In this document: piece after piece, positions 3,451 to 15,206 of the stretch
Layout: every line of letters begins with the position of its first letter
Numbering within the stretch: the stretch's first letter is position 1
DNA from: a virus
Strand: one strand, 5' to 3'
Virus record (IMG/VR): IMGVR_UViG_3300009428_002659
Span: 1 to 45,134 of that record
Length of the DNA stretch: 45,134 nt
The notes under the pieces: model-generated
The model's input: the letters and a program-made list of their open reading frames with translations, nothing else
What the model was told of the DNA's origin: nothing
Database searches by the model: none
Position numbers and translations under genes: made by a program

Positions 3451-4362
3451 CTACTGTCTTAAGGTTTTAGCGATTCTAAAATCTGTGTTTGTAAAGAATT
3501 CCGGTATCAAACTTTGGTGGGTTGCTCTTATAGGATTAATATCCAATCCACCTCTTCTAGTATATAAACAAGATACCATCAATTGATCCGGCTTATAAGC
3601 ATCCATTAGATGTTTAAATACCATTTCACAAATCTCTTCATGAAAATGACTAACGGTCCTATGACTAACAATATACTTAGCAAGTGCATCTGCTGCAGGT
3701 ATGTCTCTTCCTTTTATTTTGATAAATACATCTCCCCAATCTGGCTGGTTAGTTACCCTACAGTTAGATCTAAGTAAGTTAGATTTTAACTTAATCTCTA
3801 CAGGCTCATCAACTCTATCTTCTATTGCTAATTGATTTGCATCTGACTGGAAAGCTGTAAAGTCTATTTGATCTAAGTCTACTATAGCACCGAGATCGGA
3901 ATATCCTTCAAAAGAAATAGGAATTCCTTCGCTTTCACAGGCATAAAAAGAAACGGTAGTATTAGTTTCTAGTAACTCATCTAAATCCCTCTTTACTCTT
4001 GCTTCTATAACTGCCATACAGTCTGCAGAATTATCTCCTATCCGTGTCATATTAAAAGAATTCAAGTATAACTTAATAGATTTAGATTCTACGTGATATT
4101 CACTATCTGAAGGGCAAACTATTTTCAACATACCTGCTACCGGAAGTCCTTTAGTAGTAATTGCAGATACTTCATAACAGTTCCAAGTATCTACCCCTAC
4201 AAAACTATCAGACGTAAGTCCGTAACCTTCTCTATTTAAGTACCTTGGTACTTTTACTAACAGTTCAGGAGAGTATGTATCCTTATACCCGTCTCCTCCA
4301 ACTTTTCCTAAATGCTTAGAAGCAATCTCAACTACTTCTTGATAATTCTTAACGTTTGCCAT
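3451..4362 (-). CDS. queF: NADPH-dependent 7-cyano-7-deazaguanine reductase (preQ0 to preQ1)
   Basis: QueF reduces the nitrile of preQ0 to the aminomethyl group of preQ1 using two NADPH. At 303 aa this is the long two-module form (E. coli type). The N-terminal module carries ESKSIKLYLNSFN (residues 92-104), the family signature. The C-terminal module has LRSNC-x-VT-x-QPDWG with the thioimide-forming Cys201, then FHEE (240-243) and RRGGLDINP (269-277). All key positions are present, so it should be active. It sits in an operon with a P-loop kinase. Together with folE, queD, queE and queC it shows that the pathway goes beyond preQ0 to preQ1, as needed for a formylated dPreQ1 base. Confidence 0.95.
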   Translation of the reverse strand: MANVKNYQEVVEIASKHLGKVGGDGYKDTYSPELLVKVPRYLNREGYGLTSDSFVGVDTWNCYEVSAITTKGLPVAGMLKIVCPSDSEYHVESKSIKLYLNSFNMTRIGDNSADCMAVIEARVKRDLDELLETNTTVSFYACESEGIPISFEGYSDLGAIVDLDQIDFTAFQSDANQLAIEDRVDEPVEIKLKSNLLRSNCRVTNQPDWGDVFIKIKGRDIPAADALAKYIVSHRTVSHFHEEICEMVFKHLMDAYKPDQLMVSCLYTRRGGLDINPIRATHQSLIPEFFTNTDFRIAKTLRQ

Positions 4363-4366
4363 AATT

Positions 4367-4885
4367 TTATTTTATAAATTTTAATATTTGCTCTACTCTT
4401 TGCATAGGAGAACCTGTTATCGTCAAATAAGGTTGACTTACACCTTCTAATACATCTTTAAATTCAGCATCAATATCTCTTCTCCAAAGCTCATTGACAC
4501 TTCTTACTCCATCATCTACAGAATCAAATTCTATAGGAAAATAAATGTAGTGGGTGTACTCGTTTTTAATCCTATTCCAAGTAGCGTCTATATATTTCCA
4601 CGTCTCTTCTGATACGTTATCCATAAATCTTGTATATACTACAACATCCATAAAGCATCTATCGAGTACTTGATTGGTAGGTTGTAGTAAAGCTTCTAAA
4701 TGAAAACAACTAATAGCTAATTGAGTAGCATCAGTTCCTTTCTCATTGATAGGAAATCCATAAGAGCCTATTGTTCTAGTAGATTCGTTAACAAAGTCGT
4801 ATTTAGGTAATTTATTTTTTAATAGTTCGTAAACAGTAGTCTTACCTGTACTACTTGCTCCAACTAGTGCAACTCTATTTACCAT
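4367..4885 (-). CDS. AAA_28/NadR-like P-loop nucleotide or nucleoside kinase
   Basis: 172 aa. The N-terminus has a Walker A GASSTGKTT (residues 9-17) followed by a NadR/AAA_28-type kinase pattern: NESTR, a LDR-x-x-x-D lid-like segment (VLDRCFMDVVVYTRF), and an acidic C-terminal half. Relatives phosphorylate nicotinamide riboside or act as small-molecule kinases; the substrate here cannot be read from sequence. It lies directly upstream of queF (4-base gap), so a link to nucleotide or deazaguanine metabolism is possible. The start overlaps the end of the 41-aa gene by 11 bases. Confidence 0.75.
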   Translation of the reverse strand: MVNRVALVGASSTGKTTVYELLKNKLPKYDFVNESTRTIGSYGFPINEKGTDATQLAISCFHLEALLQPTNQVLDRCFMDVVVYTRFMDNVSEETWKYIDATWNRIKNEYTHYIYFPIEFDSVDDGVRSVNELWRRDIDAEFKDVLEGVSQPYLTITGSPMQRVEQILKFIK

Positions 4886-5046: not shown

Positions 5047-5589
5047 CTACTTTCCAACTGCTTTTTTAAGAAAGTTTACCCAAAGAAATAGAGATCTATC
5101 TCTAGTTACCTTCCACATCTCTTCTTCAGTAATATTGAAAGCATTAAATCTCTCTTCTGCTAGAACTTTTCCTTCATCAACTCCTGCAACTACCTTATGA
5201 AGAACACATCCCATCACCGGGTACTTACCTTCAAAAGCTTTCATTTGTGGATCCTTACCTTTTAGTTCTGGATATTCCGTAATAAGTCCTGGATGTCCGT
5301 TAAATATACTATATTTTTCACATATAGAAGGAGGCATAATTCTTAACCATCCGTGTAGTGTTATTACAGGATCCTTATAAAACCCTATAACTTCTTCATA
5401 ATCCTCTACTAAGGGTTTATTTATTGTTGTTGCTAGTAGGTTCTGTTCTAGTAAGTCATTATTTATCTTCCTAATGTTTGAAGGCCTTTCGTTAGTTATT
5501 ATAGCATCAGGCCAATAGCCTATTGCATTAGCTATATCTACTATTTCGGAACCGGTCTGACTGAAAAATGCTATCCAGGGTTTTCTCAT
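5047..5589 (-). CDS. Formyltransferase-fold enzyme, candidate dPreQ1 formyltransferase (DpdN-like)
   Basis: 180 aa with the formyl_trans_N (PurN/Fmt) fold. The catalytic triad is visible: Asn97 and His99 in IFNGHPG, and Asp138 in VAGVDEGKVLAEE. YPELKGKDPQ between them matches the substrate-loop region of PurN. Phage enzymes of this fold are proposed to formylate the aminomethyl group of dPreQ1, giving 2'-deoxy-7-(formylamino)methyl-7-deazaguanine (DpdN). This gene ends the operon that starts with folE and contains dpdA, so that role is the best fit. A purine or sugar formyltransferase is the alternative. Confidence 0.8.
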   Translation of the reverse strand: MRKPWIAFFSQTGSEIVDIANAIGYWPDAIITNERPSNIRKINNDLLEQNLLATTINKPLVEDYEEVIGFYKDPVITLHGWLRIMPPSICEKYSIFNGHPGLITEYPELKGKDPQMKAFEGKYPVMGCVLHKVVAGVDEGKVLAEERFNAFNITEEEMWKVTRDRSLFLWVNFLKKAVGK

Positions 5590-5777
5590 TTTACTATTTG
5601 TTCTATACCTTCATAAGAGATTGGATATAAATGTGCTCCACATCTGATGCTGTATTTAGTATTATAGCTAGAGAAGTTCACATAACCTTCGCTTATTGTT
5701 TCTATAACCCCGACTTCTACTTGGCCAATAAAATTAAATTTTACTTTATCTCCTACCTTATACTGCTCTCTTTCCAT
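5586..5777 (-). CDS. Small 63-aa SH3/KOW-like beta-barrel protein
   Basis: The composition KVGDKVKFNFIGQVEVGVIETISEG resembles a small SH3-like barrel that modulates binding (V-G-D-x-V at the first strand, G-x-I turn, terminal hydrophobic strand). It overlaps dpdA upstream by 20 bases and the formyltransferase downstream by 4, so it is tightly coupled between two DNA-modification genes. A role as a DNA/RNA-binding accessory is inference only. Confidence 0.65.
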   Translation of the reverse strand: MEREQYKVGDKVKFNFIGQVEVGVIETISEGYVNFSSYNTKYSIRCGAHLYPISYEGIEQIVK

Positions 5778-6558
5778 TTGTAAGCCATTTAAATTTATGA
5801 ATATTATTTAGAATTAAATTCGTATCTTCTACTTCAAAATTAATGAGTTCATGAAGCTTTTGTCTTTCTTTTGAGAATAATCCATCTGAACCGTATGGTA
5901 TACCTTTAATGCCATGCACGACAGGGTTACTAGTATCTAAGGAGTAAATCCAAGGGTATTGAGAATAGTAAGAAAACTCTTGAGGTAGTCCACAACCTAG
6001 TAGGTGATGAGGTTTATCTTCATTTATTATACCGTCTCTTACTAAATCTCCAAGTAGCTTAATACGTCCTAGCATCCAGCTAACATACTTGTTAGGATGA
6101 GGTATAGAATCGGTATAATACGAATAGTCAAAAGATATTGCGACCATGTCTACATTAGCAATTTTATCCATATATTCGTAACATGCTGCTATCTGCTTGT
6201 ATGTCTTACCTTGAACTACTCCTATCTTTTTACCGTATACTGATTTTGAATAGTGCATATTCCAGCTAGCCATCTGACTCATAGTTTTCTTAGTATCTTC
6301 TAATGCATCAGGTACTATATACCAAGTTGGTCTTAGCTCATTAATCCAGTAAGCAAATTTATCAGCATCAAAAGCTTCTTCTAATTCAAAAATAGAATTA
6401 TCTAATATAACTTCCCTACCTTTTTTGACTGCTTCTTTAAACTGGTTTAAGTACTCTTCATCTTCTTCTAATAAATGTACTAATGCGTAATCATAATCTG
6501 TATACTGTTGTACATCGTTAAAAATACTTTTAGGACTTTCATGAGCTATTTTAATCAT
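5758..6558 (-). CDS. dpdA: DpdA-like DNA guanine transglycosylase
   Basis: 266 aa with the spaced motifs of the tRNA/DNA guanine transglycosylase TIM barrel. LDNSIFE (52-58, Asp53) replaces the DSGGF block. PDALED is at 83-88. GVVQG (113-117) matches the base-binding QGG loop and LLGCGLP (186-192) the GGL-x-x-GE segment. SLDTSNP (206-212, Asp208) sits at the nucleophile position. The C-terminal tRNA zinc site is absent, as in phage DpdA proteins. The enzyme would swap guanine in phage DNA for a 7-deazaguanine. It is in the folE operon, followed by the formyltransferase-like gene. The subfamily cannot be fixed by eye. Confidence 0.83.
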   Translation of the reverse strand: MIKIAHESPKSIFNDVQQYTDYDYALVHLLEEDEEYLNQFKEAVKKGREVILDNSIFELEEAFDADKFAYWINELRPTWYIVPDALEDTKKTMSQMASWNMHYSKSVYGKKIGVVQGKTYKQIAACYEYMDKIANVDMVAISFDYSYYTDSIPHPNKYVSWMLGRIKLLGDLVRDGIINEDKPHHLLGCGLPQEFSYYSQYPWIYSLDTSNPVVHGIKGIPYGSDGLFSKERQKLHELINFEVEDTNLILNNIHKFKWLTNGKRAV

Positions 6559-6737: not shown

Positions 6738-7259
6738 CTAGAAGAATTGCTTTAAGTCTGGTCTGAAGTAATTAATGCTTTTCATTACTTTCCTGTCACG
6801 TGTTCTATAGACAATATACCGTCCCTCATCAATCTTCTCAAAATGGCAGGCCTCACCTTGTTCCTGAGTTCTTTTGCTGACGCTATGTATGGCTTCTTCT
6901 TCAGTTTTGCAAGCTTTTGACATATTACTTGCCTGTACCTCTTGATATGCTGGCCATATCTTATCCTTAAGACCATGTAACATAGTACCGTTCCCAAGGG
7001 AAACATAAGCAATGTCGCACAAAGCGTCCAAAACTTCCACAATGTCTCCGTTTTCGCAAGCTTCTCTATATTCTTCAAGTTCTTCGAGTATGAAGTCATA
7101 TACGAATTGCCATTCTTTCTTAGCCGGTATAGTAGGTTCATAGTTATTAGGTTTATTAAATGTGTCGTTAAATGTTTCTACTTCACTAACAAAAGGTACA
7201 TAGTCTTTTCCAGTTTTAGGATCTAGTATAGGGAATAATGATAATTGTTTTCCTTCCAT
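6738..7259 (-). CDS. PRA-PH/MazG-like all-alpha NTP pyrophosphohydrolase
   Basis: 173 aa. Residues about 48-120 show the all-alpha NTP pyrophosphatase pattern: EELEEYREACENGD, then EVLDALCDIAYV and a NMSKACKTEEEA tail, close to phosphoribosyl-ATP pyrophosphohydrolase-like (PF01503) phage proteins. The E-x-x-E and D-x-x-D metal-binding helices are present. Such enzymes hydrolyse (d)NTPs to monophosphates. It is second in the folE operon, suggesting nucleotide-pool control linked to guanine modification; the actual substrate is unknown. Confidence 0.8.
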   Translation of the reverse strand: MEGKQLSLFPILDPKTGKDYVPFVSEVETFNDTFNKPNNYEPTIPAKKEWQFVYDFILEELEEYREACENGDIVEVLDALCDIAYVSLGNGTMLHGLKDKIWPAYQEVQASNMSKACKTEEEAIHSVSKRTQEQGEACHFEKIDEGRYIVYRTRDRKVMKSINYFRPDLKQFF

Positions 7260-7264
7260 AATAT

Positions 7265-7978
7265 TTAATGTTTACAAATTGAAGCTAATTCTATATTCTT
7301 ATAAAATTCTGCTTTTGCAGAATCTTCGTGTAAAAATGCTCCGGTTAGTTTTGCTGTTTGCATTGAGGCACCACCGTGTTTAACTCCTCTACAGGATACA
7401 CATGCATGAGTAGCATTAACTTGTACTGCAACTCCTAAATTACCTTCACATATCTTATTTACTGCATTATGTATAGCCACAGTAAGTTGTTCCTGAATAG
7501 CTCCTCTTCTTCCGAATTGCTCTACTATTCTATTTAGCTTAGATAGTCCAACTACCTTTCCATCTTCCGAAGCAATATAAGCAATACTTACTGTACCTCT
7601 AATAGCTTGATGATGGTGAGAACACATAGACGTTACTGGTATATTACTCTCCTGTACAATACCGTCATATCCGTCTGAAGGAAATGCTGTAATACGGTCT
7701 AAAGGGTTATACCTTCCTGCCCATAAATCATTAACGTATGCTTTTGCTACTCTATGAGGGGTCTCAGATGAATTAGGATCGTCTTTATAGTTACATCCTA
7801 ATGCAGTTAGAAAATCTGCATAAGCATTTGCTGCTCTTTCTATAATTACTTGTTTCTCATGTTCAGTTAATCTAGCTTCAGGTCCTTCTGCTTTTTGCTT
7901 CTCTGCTAATTGACTTGATATACCGTTTGCATATCCTGCTTTTACTAATTCTGTTCCGTCTATAAACTTTTTAGGCAT
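7265..7978 (-). CDS. folE: GTP cyclohydrolase I
   Basis: FolE converts GTP to 7,8-dihydroneopterin triphosphate, the first step to preQ0. 237 aa. The zinc and active-site block SMCSHHH is at 117-123 (Cys119); the usual CEHH appears as CSHH. GLSKLNRIVEQF is at 144-155, and the second zinc Cys193 lies in HACVSCRGVKHGG. It is the first gene of an operon running through a pyrophosphohydrolase, dpdA and a formyltransferase. Its leader contains a promoter motif and a preQ1-I-like riboswitch, so expression is likely shut down when preQ1 accumulates. Host FolE also serves folate synthesis, but the gene company points to 7-deazaguanine synthesis. Confidence 0.95.
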   Translation of the reverse strand: MPKKFIDGTELVKAGYANGISSQLAEKQKAEGPEARLTEHEKQVIIERAANAYADFLTALGCNYKDDPNSSETPHRVAKAYVNDLWAGRYNPLDRITAFPSDGYDGIVQESNIPVTSMCSHHHQAIRGTVSIAYIASEDGKVVGLSKLNRIVEQFGRRGAIQEQLTVAIHNAVNKICEGNLGVAVQVNATHACVSCRGVKHGGASMQTAKLTGAFLHEDSAKAEFYKNIELASICKH

Positions 7979-7985
7979 AAATTTT

Positions 7986-8014
7986 AATTGTTTTTTTTGA
8001 GGTTCTACGACTCA
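7986..8014 (-). promoter_or_regulatory. preQ1-I-like riboswitch in the folE leader
   Basis: The transcript reads UGAG-UCGUAGAAC-CUCA followed by AAAAAAACAAUU, 7 bases before the folE ATG. It has a four-pair stem, a 9-base loop and an A-rich tail containing ACAA. The T. tengcongensis preQ1-I aptamer has loop UCGCAGUAAC and tail AACAAAACAAGG, so the loop differs by one substitution and one deletion. The element at 11075-11104 is a covarying sibling. The short distance to the start codon suggests translational control. Confidence 0.7.
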
Positions 8015-8625: not shown

Positions 8626-9207
8626 TTAGTCTATTAAGTAGTCAATCCAATTCGTTCCTGATGTATTGGTGTTTGGGAACCTAAATTTTAAATTCTTATC
8701 ACCAAACTTTATAGTCTTTGTAAATTCTTTAGGTATTGCTGCTCCTGTAGGAACTCTTCTGACCTTGTCGTCAAATATTACCTCTATTACTACTTCGACT
8801 TGATAGAAGTTAGCTAGACTTCTTTCGAATTGTTCTAACCTATTCCATACTCCTCTATTTAAACTTTCATGTTGAAGAGCACAGTTAAAGTATAGAAACG
8901 TTTCTCTTAACATCTCCTTAGTACAACTAAATGCTGCTGCAGGAGCAAGATGACCTTTATCCCATACATTGTTAGAGTAGTCTTCTGGTCTAGATGTGAT
9001 CACATTAGGAACGGTTCTAAAATCCATTCCTGCTCTGTCAGCATCTCCTTTAGGACACTGAACTGTGTACCTAACTTCAAGAGGTTGTTTTAAATCTTGA
9101 TCGTACAGTACCTTGTATATCTTTGTTTCTACTTCTATTACTTGACTAACACCTGCAAAAGGTAATAATACTAATAATGTGATAATACTAATTGCTTTTC
9201 TTCCCAT
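8626..9207 (-). CDS. Secreted DNA/RNA non-specific endonuclease (NUC1 family)
   Basis: 193 aa. Residues 1-22 form a Sec signal peptide (MGRKAISIITLLVLLPFAGV, small residues before the predicted cut). The catalytic block DKGHLAPAAAF (the family's DRGH motif, here DKGH) contains the general-base His. LNRGVWNRLE supplies the Mg-binding Asn and conserved Trp/Glu. The enzyme hydrolyses DNA and RNA without sequence preference. A signal peptide on a phage nuclease is unusual: it would act in the periplasm or outside the cell, not on host DNA in the cytoplasm. The start overlaps the upstream gene by 37 bases, but the intact signal peptide supports it. Confidence 0.88.
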   Translation of the reverse strand: MGRKAISIITLLVLLPFAGVSQVIEVETKIYKVLYDQDLKQPLEVRYTVQCPKGDADRAGMDFRTVPNVITSRPEDYSNNVWDKGHLAPAAAFSCTKEMLRETFLYFNCALQHESLNRGVWNRLEQFERSLANFYQVEVVIEVIFDDKVRRVPTGAAIPKEFTKTIKFGDKNLKFRFPNTNTSGTNWIDYLID

Positions 9208-9470: not shown

Positions 9471-9597
9471 TCTCTATATATATTTTTAGTTTATCACATA
9501 GTACCAAAACGTCATCTGGTTCCATAGTAATTGCACAACATGTATTAATGTTTTCTGCTATAGTTTCTAATATTTCTAATGCCTCTTTTTTATCCAC
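9463..9597 (-). CDS. Possible 44-aa protein with GTG start
   Basis: A GTG at 9597-9595 overlaps the queE stop by one base and opens 44 codons (starts VDKKEALEILETIAENIN, ends LKIYIEND), stopping inside the next ATG. The tight packing on both sides supports a real gene, but there is no ATG or visible ribosome-binding site. Function unknown. Confidence 0.5.
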   Translation of the reverse strand: MDKKEALEILETIAENINTCCAITMEPDDVLVLCDKLKIYIEND

Positions 9598-10394
9598 TAT
9601 ACTTCACGTTGATCTTCGAAAGCAATAATGTGCGGTCTCCAAGTCATTCTATAACCATTATCTCTAACCCAATCAAATAATACGGGGTAAGATTTAAATA
9701 GTGCTTCTCTAGAATCTCCAGCAGGCATAAACCAAACTTTATGTTGAGGTACTTCTAAGATACTAATACATTCCATAATCTCGGATAATGCTCCCTCATC
9801 TTTACCGTCCCATACAGGTTTAATATGGTAGTCAGAATGGTAAGTAATTGATTGTTTTATTGCATCATAATTAAGTCTAAACTTATTATGACGTTTTACC
9901 ATTCTTTCGTCGGTAATGGCTCCTTGAGGAGTTTCAACACCAACAACGGGGACACTATTACTAAACTTAGGACTAATGCTAAGCAAATTAATAGGATAAT
10001 CGGTAGGCAGAAAATGAGATCCCTCAGTTTCAATAGTAATGAATATATTGTTTTCATGTGCAAAGTGTGTTAGTTCGTTTACTAAGGCTGGATGCATTGT
10101 TGGTGAACCGCCAGTCAACATCATTTCCTTAATATGAGGATTATCTTCATATGCCTTAATAATATCTTTGAAATTAAAATGTCCCTTTTCCGGATGAATA
10201 CTTGTATACCAACTATCACACCATCCTCCTTCACCGAAGTAGCATCTGTGTGTACATCCTGTTGTTCTAATTACCACTGTAGGATACCCTGCTCTTGAAC
10301 CTTCAGACTGCACTGCTGTATATATTTCTACAATAGGTAAATTCTTATCGTAGTCTTCTACCCTTTTTAACTGTTTATGCGACATAAATTGCAC
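9597..10394 (-). CDS. queE: 7-carboxy-7-deazaguanine synthase (radical SAM)
   Basis: QueE converts 6-carboxytetrahydropterin to 7-carboxy-7-deazaguanine. 265 aa. Near the N-terminus IVEIYTAVQSEGSRAGYPTV is the QueE signature, followed by the radical-SAM cluster Cys47-x3-Cys51-x7-Cys59 in CTHRCYFGEGGWCDSWYTS. The usual spacing in E. coli-type QueE is Cx3Cx2C, so five residues are inserted in the cluster loop. MMLTGGSPTMHP is the SAM-binding GGE-like block. The start overlaps queD by 20 bases; the Met at residue 4 is an alternative. Confidence 0.92.
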   Translation of the reverse strand: MQFMSHKQLKRVEDYDKNLPIVEIYTAVQSEGSRAGYPTVVIRTTGCTHRCYFGEGGWCDSWYTSIHPEKGHFNFKDIIKAYEDNPHIKEMMLTGGSPTMHPALVNELTHFAHENNIFITIETEGSHFLPTDYPINLLSISPKFSNSVPVVGVETPQGAITDERMVKRHNKFRLNYDAIKQSITYHSDYHIKPVWDGKDEGALSEIMECISILEVPQHKVWFMPAGDSREALFKSYPVLFDWVRDNGYRMTWRPHIIAFEDQREV

Positions 10395-10839
10395 TGTTTT
10401 TAGCGTGTTCTCTAAATTCTACTTTAACTATCTTAACTCTTCCGTCAGTTTCTGATTCAATAAATGGATTTATACTTTCGTAAATAAATTTAGCAAAGCT
10501 CTCTGCTCCTGTTGCCGGAACTACTCTTACTTGGGCTACTTTTGCTAAGTCCATTTGCATAAAAGATTCTTTGAACGGATCATCTTCAGCTACTAAAAAG
10601 GTATGATCAAACATATAATCCATCCATGCCTTAGGTGTCATCTTTTCTATAGTCCCTTTAGCTCTTTTCATTCCTCCGAAATCCCAGACCCAATTTCTTT
10701 CATCTAATTCTCCTTCAAACCATATCTTAAACGATACACCGTATCCGTGTAGTTTAGAACAATGTGTAGTTGTTGCTTTCCATTGACGAAATACAGTAGA
10801 GTATCCGTCAAATACTTTTGTTGATTGGTATTTTCCCAT
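10375..10839 (-). CDS. queD: 6-carboxy-5,6,7,8-tetrahydropterin synthase, QueD-like variant
   Basis: 154 aa, 6-pyruvoyl-tetrahydropterin synthase fold. It acts on dihydroneopterin triphosphate to give 6-carboxytetrahydropterin for QueE. HCSKLHGYGVSF (26-37) aligns with the C-x3-HGH block, with Cys27 kept and the second zinc His replaced by Tyr33. The upstream zinc His of the usual F-x-AAH block is replaced by FRQWKA. DHTFLVAEDDP and the late Thr-Gly-Ala-Glu-Ser block are conserved. The FRQW...HC..LHGY pattern looks like a coherent subfamily rather than decay. The pathway role is strongly supported by the overlapping queE gene. Confidence 0.88.
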   Translation of the reverse strand: MGKYQSTKVFDGYSTVFRQWKATTTHCSKLHGYGVSFKIWFEGELDERNWVWDFGGMKRAKGTIEKMTPKAWMDYMFDHTFLVAEDDPFKESFMQMDLAKVAQVRVVPATGAESFAKFIYESINPFIESETDGRVKIVKVEFREHAKNSAIYVA

Positions 10840-10848
10840 AATTATAAT

Positions 10849-11073
10849 TTAAACTAATTCTTCACCAATTCCAACTATTTCTGCTAAAAATAGTCCAATA
10901 AATCCAACTTCAAACATACCAAAGAATCCCAAAGCACATGCTCCCATTCTTATAGCTGATTTAATAAAAGATATTCTTTGATGTAATTTCGGATCAGGTA
11001 TCTTCTGTCCGTCGATTTTTATAGAGTTTCTAATTTCTCTATTCCATAACTCTTTTTGTATTTCTTCTTGCAT
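10849..11073 (-). CDS. Small membrane protein, first gene of the queD-queE operon
   Basis: 74 aa: a hydrophilic N-terminus (NREIRNSIKIDGQKIPDPK) followed by a hydrophobic C-terminal half that could span the membrane once or twice (ALGFFGMFEVGFIGLFLAEI). Its leader carries the second preQ1-I-like element, so it is predicted to respond to preQ1 like folE. Function unknown; a membrane role in precursor handling cannot be excluded. Confidence 0.7.
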   Translation of the reverse strand: MQEEIQKELWNREIRNSIKIDGQKIPDPKLHQRISFIKSAIRMGACALGFFGMFEVGFIGLFLAEIVGIGEELV

Positions 11074-11074
11074 A

Positions 11075-11104
11075 CGTGTGTTTTTAAAGTGGTGCTACGA
11101 CACT
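11075..11104 (-). promoter_or_regulatory. preQ1-I-like riboswitch before the queD-queE operon
   Basis: The transcript reads AGUG-UCGUAGCAC-CACU followed by UUAAAAACACACG, ending at the AUG. Compared with the folE element the stem changes from UGAG/CUCA to AGUG/CACU with pairing kept, and the 9-base loop differs at one base. The UUAA...ACA tail resembles the UUAACAAAACAAGG tail of the T. tengcongensis aptamer. Covariation plus pathway context makes this a strong candidate. Confidence 0.68.
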
Positions 11105-11117
11105 AATTATTACCTAT

Positions 11118-12812: not shown

Positions 12813-13604
12813 TTATAAATATGCAGATAAAACGTTCTCAACGTGTTTTCTCGCTACTTCGTAATCCACTTCTCCAGTTTCATCCTCATACTGTACGGGA
12901 TCTTTTCGGCCAAGGGCAATAAAAGCCTCAATCCTCTCAACACTAGAAGCAGACTTATAATCACTATTTCCTGAAGGATAAGGCTTATAAGAAGTATTTG
13001 TTCTTTTGTATACTTCATCGAAACTAAGACCCAACTTTTTAACCAATCGTTCTCCATCTTGTAAGATTCCAAATTTATCTGTATCTAAGTAAGGTGTAAA
13101 GTACCCTACTCTATCAGCCTCCCAATTACCTTCTCTAAATGCTTTATCATCTGCATCTCTAAATTCTTGTCTACAATCAGGATAAACAGCATGATCACCA
13201 GCATGAATACCTAAAGCAATATCACAAGTTTCTTCTTCTCTATTTGCTATTGATAATGCTACAGCTTGTACAATAGAAGCAAATATTTTATTCCTATTAG
13301 GTACGACAGTATCTTTCATATTTTCATTTTCGTAATGTCCTTCTGGTACATCATTTCCACCTTCTACTAGAGCTGAGTCTAGTAAATCTACTAATCCGTC
13401 TAGTTTAATTTGGCGATAATTTACTTTATGACCTTTATCTGCTAGATAATTAATTAATTCTTGAGCTCTTTCTAACTCTACCCTATGTTTTTGACCATAG
13501 TCAAATGAAATACCAGTTACAGTATCGTATTCTTTTAATGCTCTTAATAATAATGTTGAGGAGTCCATTCCCCCACTAAGACTTACAACTACATGTTTTG
13601 CCAT
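12813..13604 (-). CDS. queC: 7-cyano-7-deazaguanine (preQ0) synthase lacking the zinc cysteines
   Basis: QueC converts 7-carboxy-7-deazaguanine to preQ0 with ATP and ammonia. 263 aa. The PP-loop SGGMDSS (10-16), VPNRNKIFASI (101-111) and GIHAGDHAVYPDCR (132-145) are intact. The C-terminal zinc site normally has four Cys (C-Y then CGxCxxC-x-ER). Here the aligned residues are Ser205, Asp215, Ser218 and Ser221, so all four ligands are missing although the surrounding YK-x-S-x-x-VERIEAF frame aligns. It has its own promoter motif and a leader with a possible preQ1-responsive element. Fold and neighbours still argue for function. Confidence 0.92.
   Translation of the reverse strand: MAKHVVVSLSGGMDSSTLLLRALKEYDTVTGISFDYGQKHRVELERAQELINYLADKGHKVNYRQIKLDGLVDLLDSALVEGGNDVPEGHYENENMKDTVVPNRNKIFASIVQAVALSIANREEETCDIALGIHAGDHAVYPDCRQEFRDADDKAFREGNWEADRVGYFTPYLDTDKFGILQDGERLVKKLGLSFDEVYKRTNTSYKPYPSGNSDYKSASSVERIEAFIALGRKDPVQYEDETGEVDYEVARKHVENVLSAYL
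12814..12821 (-). promoter_or_regulatory. Late-type motif TATTTATA before the lysis genes
   Basis: The coding strand reads GCATATTTATAAGC at the very end of queC, 30 bases before the 48-aa gene. The spacing matches copies before tail genes. Confidence 0.45.
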
Positions 13605-13623
13605 GATTTTTCTTTTTTAATTT

Positions 13624-13645
13624 GCCAGGTATTACGCGTATAGGC
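13624..13645 (-). promoter_or_regulatory. Possible third preQ1-type leader element before queC
   Basis: The transcript reads GCC-UAUACGCGUAAUACCU-GGC, then an A-rich tail (AAAUUAAAAAAGAAAAA) up to the queC start. ACGCGUAAUACC resembles the aptamer core GUCGCAGUAACC, but only three outer pairs form without mismatches and the ACAA tail is missing. Its place before queC, matching the other two operons, is the main reason to list it. Confidence 0.3.
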
Positions 13646-13658
13646 TAACGGTTAATTT

Positions 13659-14792: not shown

Positions 14793-15206
14793 CTATTTTA
14801 CATTATTTCCATCTACGGATATTTCATGCCAAAACACTCTACCTTCTTCAATCGCCTTTTTTATATTCTTCTGTTTTCCCATAAGAAACGCGCTACCGCT
14901 TTTTACTTCTACGAAATGTACCGAGCATTTATTCTTACTTCCAGTATCTTTAAAAGCAACGTAGTCTATTGGCATACCTAAGAACGTACAATCTTCAGGA
15001 GGTACTGGAAAGTCGGTCATAAATGGTACGAAGTGTTCTATAGTCTTACCCCATTGTACAGCACCGGATCTTTTTTTAGCATCTCTTCTTATCTCTGCTC
15101 TTTCACTTTCAAAGTCGGCTTTTAAGTTTGCTATCTTTTTTTTATAGAGTAAAGTAACTCCTCCTAGACTAACTAGGAGAAGTGTAATTAAAATTATATA
15201 TATCAT
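14793..15206 (-). CDS. Membrane-anchored Holliday-junction-resolvase-related nuclease
   Basis: 137 aa. An N-terminal hydrophobic helix (IYIILITLLLVSLGGVTLLY) is followed by a basic coiled stretch and a PD-(D/E)XK-like core: PIDYVAF (Asp), then HFVEVKSGSA (E-x-K) and QKNIKKAIEEGRVFWHE. This order and the F-P-x-x-P start match the PF10107-type 'endonuclease related to archaeal Holliday junction resolvase'. A role in recombination intermediates is known only by similarity. It sits just downstream of nrdA. Confidence 0.75.
   Translation of the reverse strand: MIYIILITLLLVSLGGVTLLYKKKIANLKADFESERAEIRRDAKKRSGAVQWGKTIEHFVPFMTDFPVPPEDCTFLGMPIDYVAFKDTGSKNKCSVHFVEVKSGSAFLMGKQKNIKKAIEEGRVFWHEISVDGNNVK

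Follow-up and report, generated by a model that had tools for sequence, protein, structure and literature searches.

Putative preQ1-I-type riboswitches ahead of the 7-deazaguanine DNA-modification genes of a phage

The window analysed here is the whole of IMG/VR record IMGVR_UViG_3300009428_002659 (45,134 bases, positions 1 to 45,134), an AT-rich genome with a GC content of 0.35 whose nearest named relatives are Bacteroidota phages. It carries the genes of the 7-deazaguanine pathway, and the question that this locus raises is whether the phage regulates them with a preQ1-sensing RNA of its own. The answer that we favour, with a probability of roughly four in five, is that two copies of a short motif in the window are phage-encoded riboswitches, built as a compact variant of the preQ1-I aptamer, through which preQ1 represses translation by feedback; ligand binding, affinity and the direction of regulation are inferred. 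It seems that a virus of marine bacteria uses preQ1-type RNA sensors to set its output of the modified base that disguises its genome.

The pathway genes all lie on the minus strand, in the order queC; ORF74, queD and queE; and folE, followed by the genes for a MazG-like protein, a DpdA-like protein, a formyltransferase-like protein, a kinase and QueF. QueC, the preQ0 synthase, is encoded at 12813-13604 (PF06508, E 3e-38). ORF74 (10849-11073), the first gene after the second copy of the motif, encodes a 74-residue protein of unknown function that has no Pfam or PHROG match, and it is followed by the genes for QueD (10375-10839, PF01242) and QueE (9597-10394, PF04055, and TIGR03365 under the cut-off). 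The ORF74 protein has a hydrophobic stretch; in relatives the gene often sits between the motif and queD, and in some of them a lipoprotein-like protein of 197 residues follows the motif in its place. A DNA/RNA non-specific endonuclease (PF01223), whose N-terminus is signal-like, is encoded at 8626-9207, also on the minus strand, between the queE and folE blocks. The folE block begins with FolE, GTP cyclohydrolase I (7265-7978, PF01227, E 3e-42), the first gene after the first copy of the motif, and continues with a MazG-like/PRA-PH pyrophosphohydrolase (6738-7259, PF01503) and a DpdA-like DNA guanine transglycosylase (5758-6558). The latter belongs to PHROG 19058, of unknown function, and has no Pfam or NCBIfam match; its 77% identical counterpart in Flavobacterium phage immuto carries the annotation DpdA, and that phage shares the window's gene order of folE, dpdA, formyltransferase, kinase and queF.

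The next gene encodes a formyltransferase-like protein (5047-5589, PF00551), which we propose to act on the 7-aminomethyl group, the substrate being inferred. Cui and colleagues reportedly found in 2023 that a formyltransferase acts on preQ1, giving formylated preQ1 in DNA. The block ends with a P-loop kinase resembling thymidylate kinase (4367-4885, PF13521, PHROG 2107) and QueF, the nitrile reductase (3451-4362). QueF matched TIGR03138 with an E-value of 2e-72 and 244 bits, under the curated cut-off of 293, and PF14819 and PF14489 above cut-off. Because QueF converts preQ0 to preQ1, preQ1 is an expected intermediate.

An earlier note on this DNA had claimed a preQ1-I-like motif in the folE leader, with a UGAG/CUCA stem, a loop and a tail 7 bases from the ATG. 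The motif was found exactly so at 8014-7986 on the minus strand (copy 1, UGAG UCGUAGAAC CUCA AAAAAAACAAUU). Its P1 stem is formed by UGAG (8014-8011) and CUCA (8001-7998), which enclose the loop UCGUAGAAC (8010-8002); an A-rich L3 (7997-7991) leads to a conserved C at 7990, for which the G at 8005 is the proposed pairing partner, and a 7-base gap separates the motif from the folE start at 7978. The note had described a single leader, which holds for the folE copy and is incomplete for the window. A second copy (copy 2, AGUG UCGUAGCAC CACU UUAAAAACACA) lies at 11077-11105 on the minus strand, 3.1 kb upstream of copy 1 in the leader of ORF74-queD-queE, with 3 bases between its end and the ORF74 start codon, and a different RNA element precedes queC. 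Many relatives have the equivalent of copy 2 at the same place. The preQ1-I pocket bases are kept in both copies, and the core pattern GWGTYGNAGMACCWC matches the window twice (in the folE leader and at 11089-11103). Against the covariance model R1, built from 24 rows of which copy 1 is one, copy 1 scored 44.0 bits (E 1.8e-6); copy 2, absent from the training rows, scored 43.9 bits (E 1.8e-6). A third R1 match (15135-15162, 16.9 bits) lies inside an ORF of 137 residues and was rejected. A box, CGTATATTWA, was seen upstream of some copies of the motif and occurs twice in the window.

Conservation of the loop in related phages, which the note had made a test of its claim, was borne out. Among the folE relatives, taken as the best 80 of 598 matching in viral contigs, 57 of the 80 loci have the motif before folE, 55 found by regular expression and two by inspection (L025, which has a single A-A mismatch, and L080, whose loop has 10 bases). 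The motif is absent before folE in the other 23 of these best 80 loci, and eight of those 23 records (G011-G014, G016, G017, G029 and G037) have it elsewhere. The P1 stem occurs among relatives as UGAG/CUCA, UGUG/CACA, GGAG/CUCC, AGUG/CACU and GGUG/CACC. Its covariation score over 24 distinct sequences was 0.457, against a shuffle mean of 0.133, with none of 500 shuffles as high and slid controls of at most 0.172. Double changes occur at two of the five P1 pairs, two others are invariant and one is mostly unformed. Two of the five covariation measures were not above shuffles (2 double-change pairs, 3.0 in shuffles; 3 further pair types, 5.4 in shuffles), because two of the five pairs are invariant and the fifth is formed in only 4 of the 24 sequences. 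When the P1 pairs were followed over a tree of 57 distinct FolE protein rows, for which bootstrap support was not settled, seven or more switches between A-U and U-A were counted at the second pair and five or more changes at the fourth; a single case among 40 was unpaired. The compensatory changes are thus recurrent events and not a single inherited one. Loop position 12 was observed to track the second stem pair, with C beside U-A in 51 and A beside A-U in 20 of 76 distinct rows.

The pocket bases were compared in 38 distinct motifs that had been found by the covariance model and not by pattern. U6 and A10 are invariant in all 38, and G11 and the last loop C in all 37 nine-base loops; since the model was built from such motifs, this invariance is partly by construction. 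The folE leaders that were fetched by protein show the same pocket bases. Position 7 is C in 35 of the 38 motifs and U in three, and the base before the last loop C is A in 36 of 37, so that the loop ends in AC in 36 cases and in CC in one. The loop has nine bases in 37 of the 38 motifs (ten in L080). The consensus thus has a G-C-closed P1 of four pairs, to which a minority of motifs add a fifth; a nine-base loop with U at its start and AC at its end, most commonly UCGUAGAAC or UCGUAGCAC; and an A-rich tail with AAAC, most commonly AAAACA, whose last ACA stands 3-12 bases ahead of the start codons of 7-deazaguanine gene blocks. For a second P2 pair, loop N9 and the tail base three past the C can pair in 28 of 38 motifs, against a mean of 23.3 in shuffles and with as many in 92 of 5000 shuffles, and all five motifs with C9 have G at the partner tail base. 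C9-G33 is the P2 pair of Thermoanaerobacter tengcongensis (Tte). The support for a second P2 pair in the phage motifs, drawn from such base counts, is modest.

Placement was surveyed in 225 sequences, i.e., 224 loci and the window. The motif fits 257 places, 117 of them distinct, after nine further regular-expression matches with an unfit loop or tail had been dropped. At 109 of the 117 distinct places a pathway gene comes next within 4 kb (FolE at 53, QueD at 52, QueE at three and DpdA at one); seven of the remaining eight have less than 700 bases of sequence downstream, and the last is followed by no more than an ORF74-like gene. At the DpdA place (L216) and at one of the seven with little downstream sequence (L135), the first gene after the motif encodes FolE2, a GTP cyclohydrolase of another family (PF02649, E 1e-65 and 2e-25). 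The motif is therefore kept where FolE2 replaces FolE: the RNA tracks the metabolic step rather than the gene that carries it out. The maximum is two copies per record. A bacterial origin was considered and, on the GUG/CAC form of the pattern alone, rejected: that form gave one match in 84,980 species genomes, on the opposite strand of a 242-residue ORF in Calothrix, and it was taken as chance.

The identity of the ligand was approached through QueF, which was surveyed in 90 different records (50 behind folE loci, 38 behind queC loci and 9 more with queC). The 38 are at least 30 kb long and carry the queC element described below; in the 9 it was not found at first, and L419 among them has it. 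QueF and the motif occur together in 40 records, QueF alone in three (G031, G033 and G049), the motif alone in ten and neither in 37; the ten motif-only records all end at most 4 kb downstream of a motif. Fisher's test gave p 1e-12 even with these ten counted against the association, uncorrected for relatedness. The E-value cut-offs of the survey ranged from 0.01 to 0.1, its records include many fragments, some of them shorter than 10 kb, and four QueF calls (G021, G027, G028 and G049) rest on frames of 283-321 residues under the Pfam cut-off. The comparison is also one-sided, in that record ends explain the ten motif-only records and the 37 records with neither were unchecked for being cut. 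Among complete cultured Bacteroidota phages, immuto has QueF and the motif, and phiST, phi13:1 and MA9V-3 have neither. Streptococcus phage Dp-1, which has a QueF match and QueT, gave no R1 match, and a search of 50,000 of its bases against Rfam found nothing at gathering score.

These results bear on the alternative that survives best, namely that a riboswitch of this same fold responds chiefly to preQ0 or to a later product, for instance formylated preQ1. Class I aptamers also bind preQ0, and the preference of the Tte aptamer for preQ1 is given as only 17-fold (PMC10622847, available in part); the formyltransferase-like protein in the gene block would suit a later product. Against this alternative, the motif tracks QueF, the enzyme that converts preQ0 to preQ1. 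All 16 QueF-bearing records among the 38 queC records of at least 30 kb have the motif, whereas of the 22 without QueF, 16 lack it (unchecked for being cut) and the other six end at most 4 kb from it; the element that is present without QueF is instead the one in the queC leader. We regard a ligand other than preQ1 as unlikely, although it remains a live possibility.

The queC-leader element is distinct from copies 1 and 2. In the window it lies at 13621-13652 on the minus strand, with a P1 of CCGU/ACGC (one C-C mismatch) and the conserved AAUACCUGGCA, 16 bases from the queC start codon; the distance is about 20 generally. It scored 49.3 bits (E 3.9e-9) against a second model, R2, the window row being among the training rows. 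In general the element has a P1 of GCGU/ACGC or a variant, GCCUAU in its loop, and 2-5 linker bases before AAUACCUGGCA. The loop GCC could pair with GGC as a pseudoknot, as judged from base complementarity; GCC and GGC are both invariant within the main group. No relevant Rfam match was found for the element. It is present in 72 of 80 queC relatives (71 and L419) and missing from eight. Over 32 distinct sequences its P1 is 99.3% paired and shows double changes at three of its pairs. The covariation score is 0.181 against 0.078, as high in none of 500 shuffles; other measures were less clear (double-change pairs, 32 of 500 shuffles as high; further types, 217 of 500). Of the eight that lack it, L381, L387, L391 and L406 have a similar layout with a GGAU/AUCC stem and GACCC or GGCCC with GGGUC, and the records of these four showed neither QueF nor the preQ1-I-like motif.

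A DNA pattern scan found at least 119 stretches that fit the queC element. Together with the loci, this gives at least 113 distinct places, of which 106 are listed directly before QueC. Of 51 records, 31 of which have QueC, R2 matched 23 with E below 1e-7, in every case directly before QueC; a 24th match (G050) was weak, with E 0.0025, in a record without a QueC match. The element is also present in 16 records in which neither QueF nor the preQ1-I-like motif was seen, although these records may be incomplete. Its presence without QueF suggests an earlier ligand such as preQ0. It is possibly a second, preQ0-type sensor, and on its predicted fold it is a candidate for a new riboswitch class. A wider picture can be drawn only tentatively, and we hold it at somewhat less than an even chance: the phages would have two RNA sensors, a fourth preQ1-I subtype on folE and queDE where QueF is present, and a queC pseudoknot of a new class that senses preQ0 or an early 7-deazaguanine and is kept without QueF, both on mRNAs without Shine-Dalgarno (SD) sequences.

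A search of the folE leader with the Rfam preQ1-I model RF00522 had been proposed as a check, and it did not support the claim: no match at the motif was found in the window, either at gathering score over its whole length or in narrow E-value searches, and three weak matches away from the motif were taken as chance. None of 50 records exceeded the RF00522 gathering score of 39 bits. At E 0.1, these 50 records gave 21 weak matches, none above the cut-off, of which four (G018, G020, G041 and G050) fall exactly on the motif and on the same strand, against 0.014 expected. RF00522 was built without these phage motifs. The expectation assumes uniform placement, a generous null because both models favour A-rich tails, which are common in an AT-rich genome. 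The best score on a motif was 21.8 bits (L080/G050, E 0.0083), in the correct register and with a longer stem; L050 gave no RF00522 match. Three of the 17 off-motif matches were inspected and set aside: one resembles a tRNA arm (L229), one precedes an unidentified gene (L230), and one is a terminator-like stretch about 50 bases upstream of a queD-block motif (L231).

The RF00522 overlap also weighs against reading the hairpin as the operator of a phage RNA-binding translational repressor, its likeness to preQ1-I being convergent. Short conserved hairpins at start codons are indeed the classic phage translational operators, as known for T4 RegA and the coliphage coat proteins. In the present motif, however, the loop, the AC before the 3' strand of P1 and the tail match the preQ1-I pocket, the placement is at pathway genes, and two stem pairs vary freely while the pocket bases do not. 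We therefore give an operator little weight.

How preQ1 would act is inferred from the layout and from known preQ1-I structures. In the preferred reading, free preQ1 would pair with the last loop C (C14), U6 and a tail A completing the pocket, and loop G11 would pair with the tail C to form an H-type pseudoknot. As preQ1 builds up, the pseudoknot would lock the A-rich stretch by the start codon and block ribosome loading. The conserved tail C stands 12 bases from the start codon in copy 1 and 7 in copy 2. Transcription attenuation was rejected as unlikely, the gap from motif to start codon being too short for a terminator; because none can form there, control of translation initiation is the simplest reading. 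The window genes being without SD sequences, the occluded element would be the start region itself. No SD-like 4-mer was found at -20 to -4 before the 42 script-called window ORFs (1.3 in shuffles, not significant alone), and the regions upstream of the window ORFs are A-rich, in keeping with the Bacteroidota phage relatives. The outcome would be feedback repression of folE, with dpdA, the formyltransferase gene and queF behind it, and of queD-queE, so that the base for phage DNA is made only as fast as it is used.

Single-sequence folding energies were no better than those of shuffles (z -0.31 and 0.02); with longer flanks (z 0.93 and 1.13), neither P1 nor a competing hairpin was predicted. 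For copy 2, a competing hairpin, GUGU(CGUA)GCAC at 11092-11103 on the minus strand, is predicted to be favoured over P1 (-2.4 against -1.0 kcal/mol). It is also possible in those copy 2 relatives that have a GUG stem and C12, and it was not seen for copy 1. This predicted hairpin could be the ligand-free state. The opposite direction of regulation, in which preQ1 binding raises expression by activation or by stabilising the mRNA, rests on the inference that the motif may sit close to the start of the transcript, a position from which the folded pseudoknot could protect the mRNA. The preQ1 switches described in the available part of a 2024 review, however, turn expression off when preQ1 is abundant (PMC11625349), and the pseudoknot would cover the ribosome landing zone; we give an activating switch little weight as well. 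Chance likeness in an A-rich leader, to which we attach next to no credence, can appeal to the AT-rich genome and to the frequency of A-rich stretches before genes, but shuffled windows are expected to hold 0.00 matches (100 shuffles) against the two observed, and the stem covariation and the pathway genes after 109 of 117 places leave it, on this comparative evidence, already refuted by conservation.

The claim that the phage encodes a preQ1-I-type aptamer on its DNA-modification genes is thus supported comparatively, by the pocket bases, the stem covariation, the placement, the co-occurrence with QueF and the exchange of FolE for FolE2. If it is true, a virus regulates the supply of a DNA-shielding modified base by a metabolite-sensing RNA. 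A preQ1-sensing phage switch would further imply a pool of free preQ1. Whether the substrate of phage QueF is free preQ0 or a base that has already been built into DNA was not settled by Hutinet et al. 2019 (PMC6884629), as far as the available text goes, and the switch would make this question testable. A cultured phage for such tests is Flavobacterium phage vB_FspM_immuto_2-6A, which has QueF and the folE motif; G032, an IMG/VR record with the motif at the coordinates of immuto, also carries the queC element.

A literature search of titles and the starts of abstracts found no phage preQ1 riboswitch described before, but subscription papers were mostly outside its coverage and absence is unproven. 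The Seurat phage paper (PMC4342423) was considered as a prior report and rejected, since in the part available the word riboswitch occurs only in a reference title. The 2024 review of preQ1 riboswitches (PMC11625349), in its accessible sections, predicts translation-controlling riboswitches in organisms without SD sequences and states that searches for them are hampered; the phage motif looks like one of this predicted kind, and the words phage and virus are absent from the review text.

The gene set FolE-QueD-QueE-QueC-QueF-DpdA resembles that of the phage 7-deazaguanine DNA modification laid out by Hutinet et al. 2019 (PMC6884629, available in part), according to whom the QueF-bearing phages Dp-1 and HVTV-1 carry dPreQ1. 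That paper describes no RNA regulation, and the word riboswitch occurs in its text 0 times. Among preQ1 riboswitches, classes II and III (RF01054 and RF02680) share the ligand family but differ in architecture, and neither reached gathering score anywhere in the window or in five stretches of phage DNA. In known preQ1-I structures, preQ1 is paired to the specificity C that precedes the 3' strand of P1, beneath a C7-G11-C30 triple (PMC11625349, PMC10622847, both available in part). P1 is closed by G5-C16 in Tte (PMC11625349, same sections), and in type III by G5-C15 with the specificity C at position 14 (PMC10622847, same sections). The phage motif is like type II (T. tengcongensis, Bacillus subtilis; RF00522) in its G-C-closed P1, its loop with U first and AC last, the proposed pairing of a loop G with a tail C, the A-rich L3 and its place on preQ1 synthesis genes. 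It differs from type II in having a loop of nine bases and not ten as in Tte, a tail without an SD sequence and a score under the RF00522 gathering threshold, in being phage-encoded, and in that its genes serve the modification of DNA and not of tRNA. With type III (E. coli) it shares the nine-base loop and the AC ahead of the 3' strand of P1; in contrast to type III, however, its loop is not pyrimidine-rich and mostly does not start with UU, its tail lacks the AAGG SD sequence, and it does not precede yhhQ. Because its loop has the length of type III and a sequence nearer to type II, the phage motif fits no existing subtype. In the absence of ligand or expression data, the best reading of this nine-base loop with a type II-like core is a putative variant of the preQ1-I riboswitch in a new setting.
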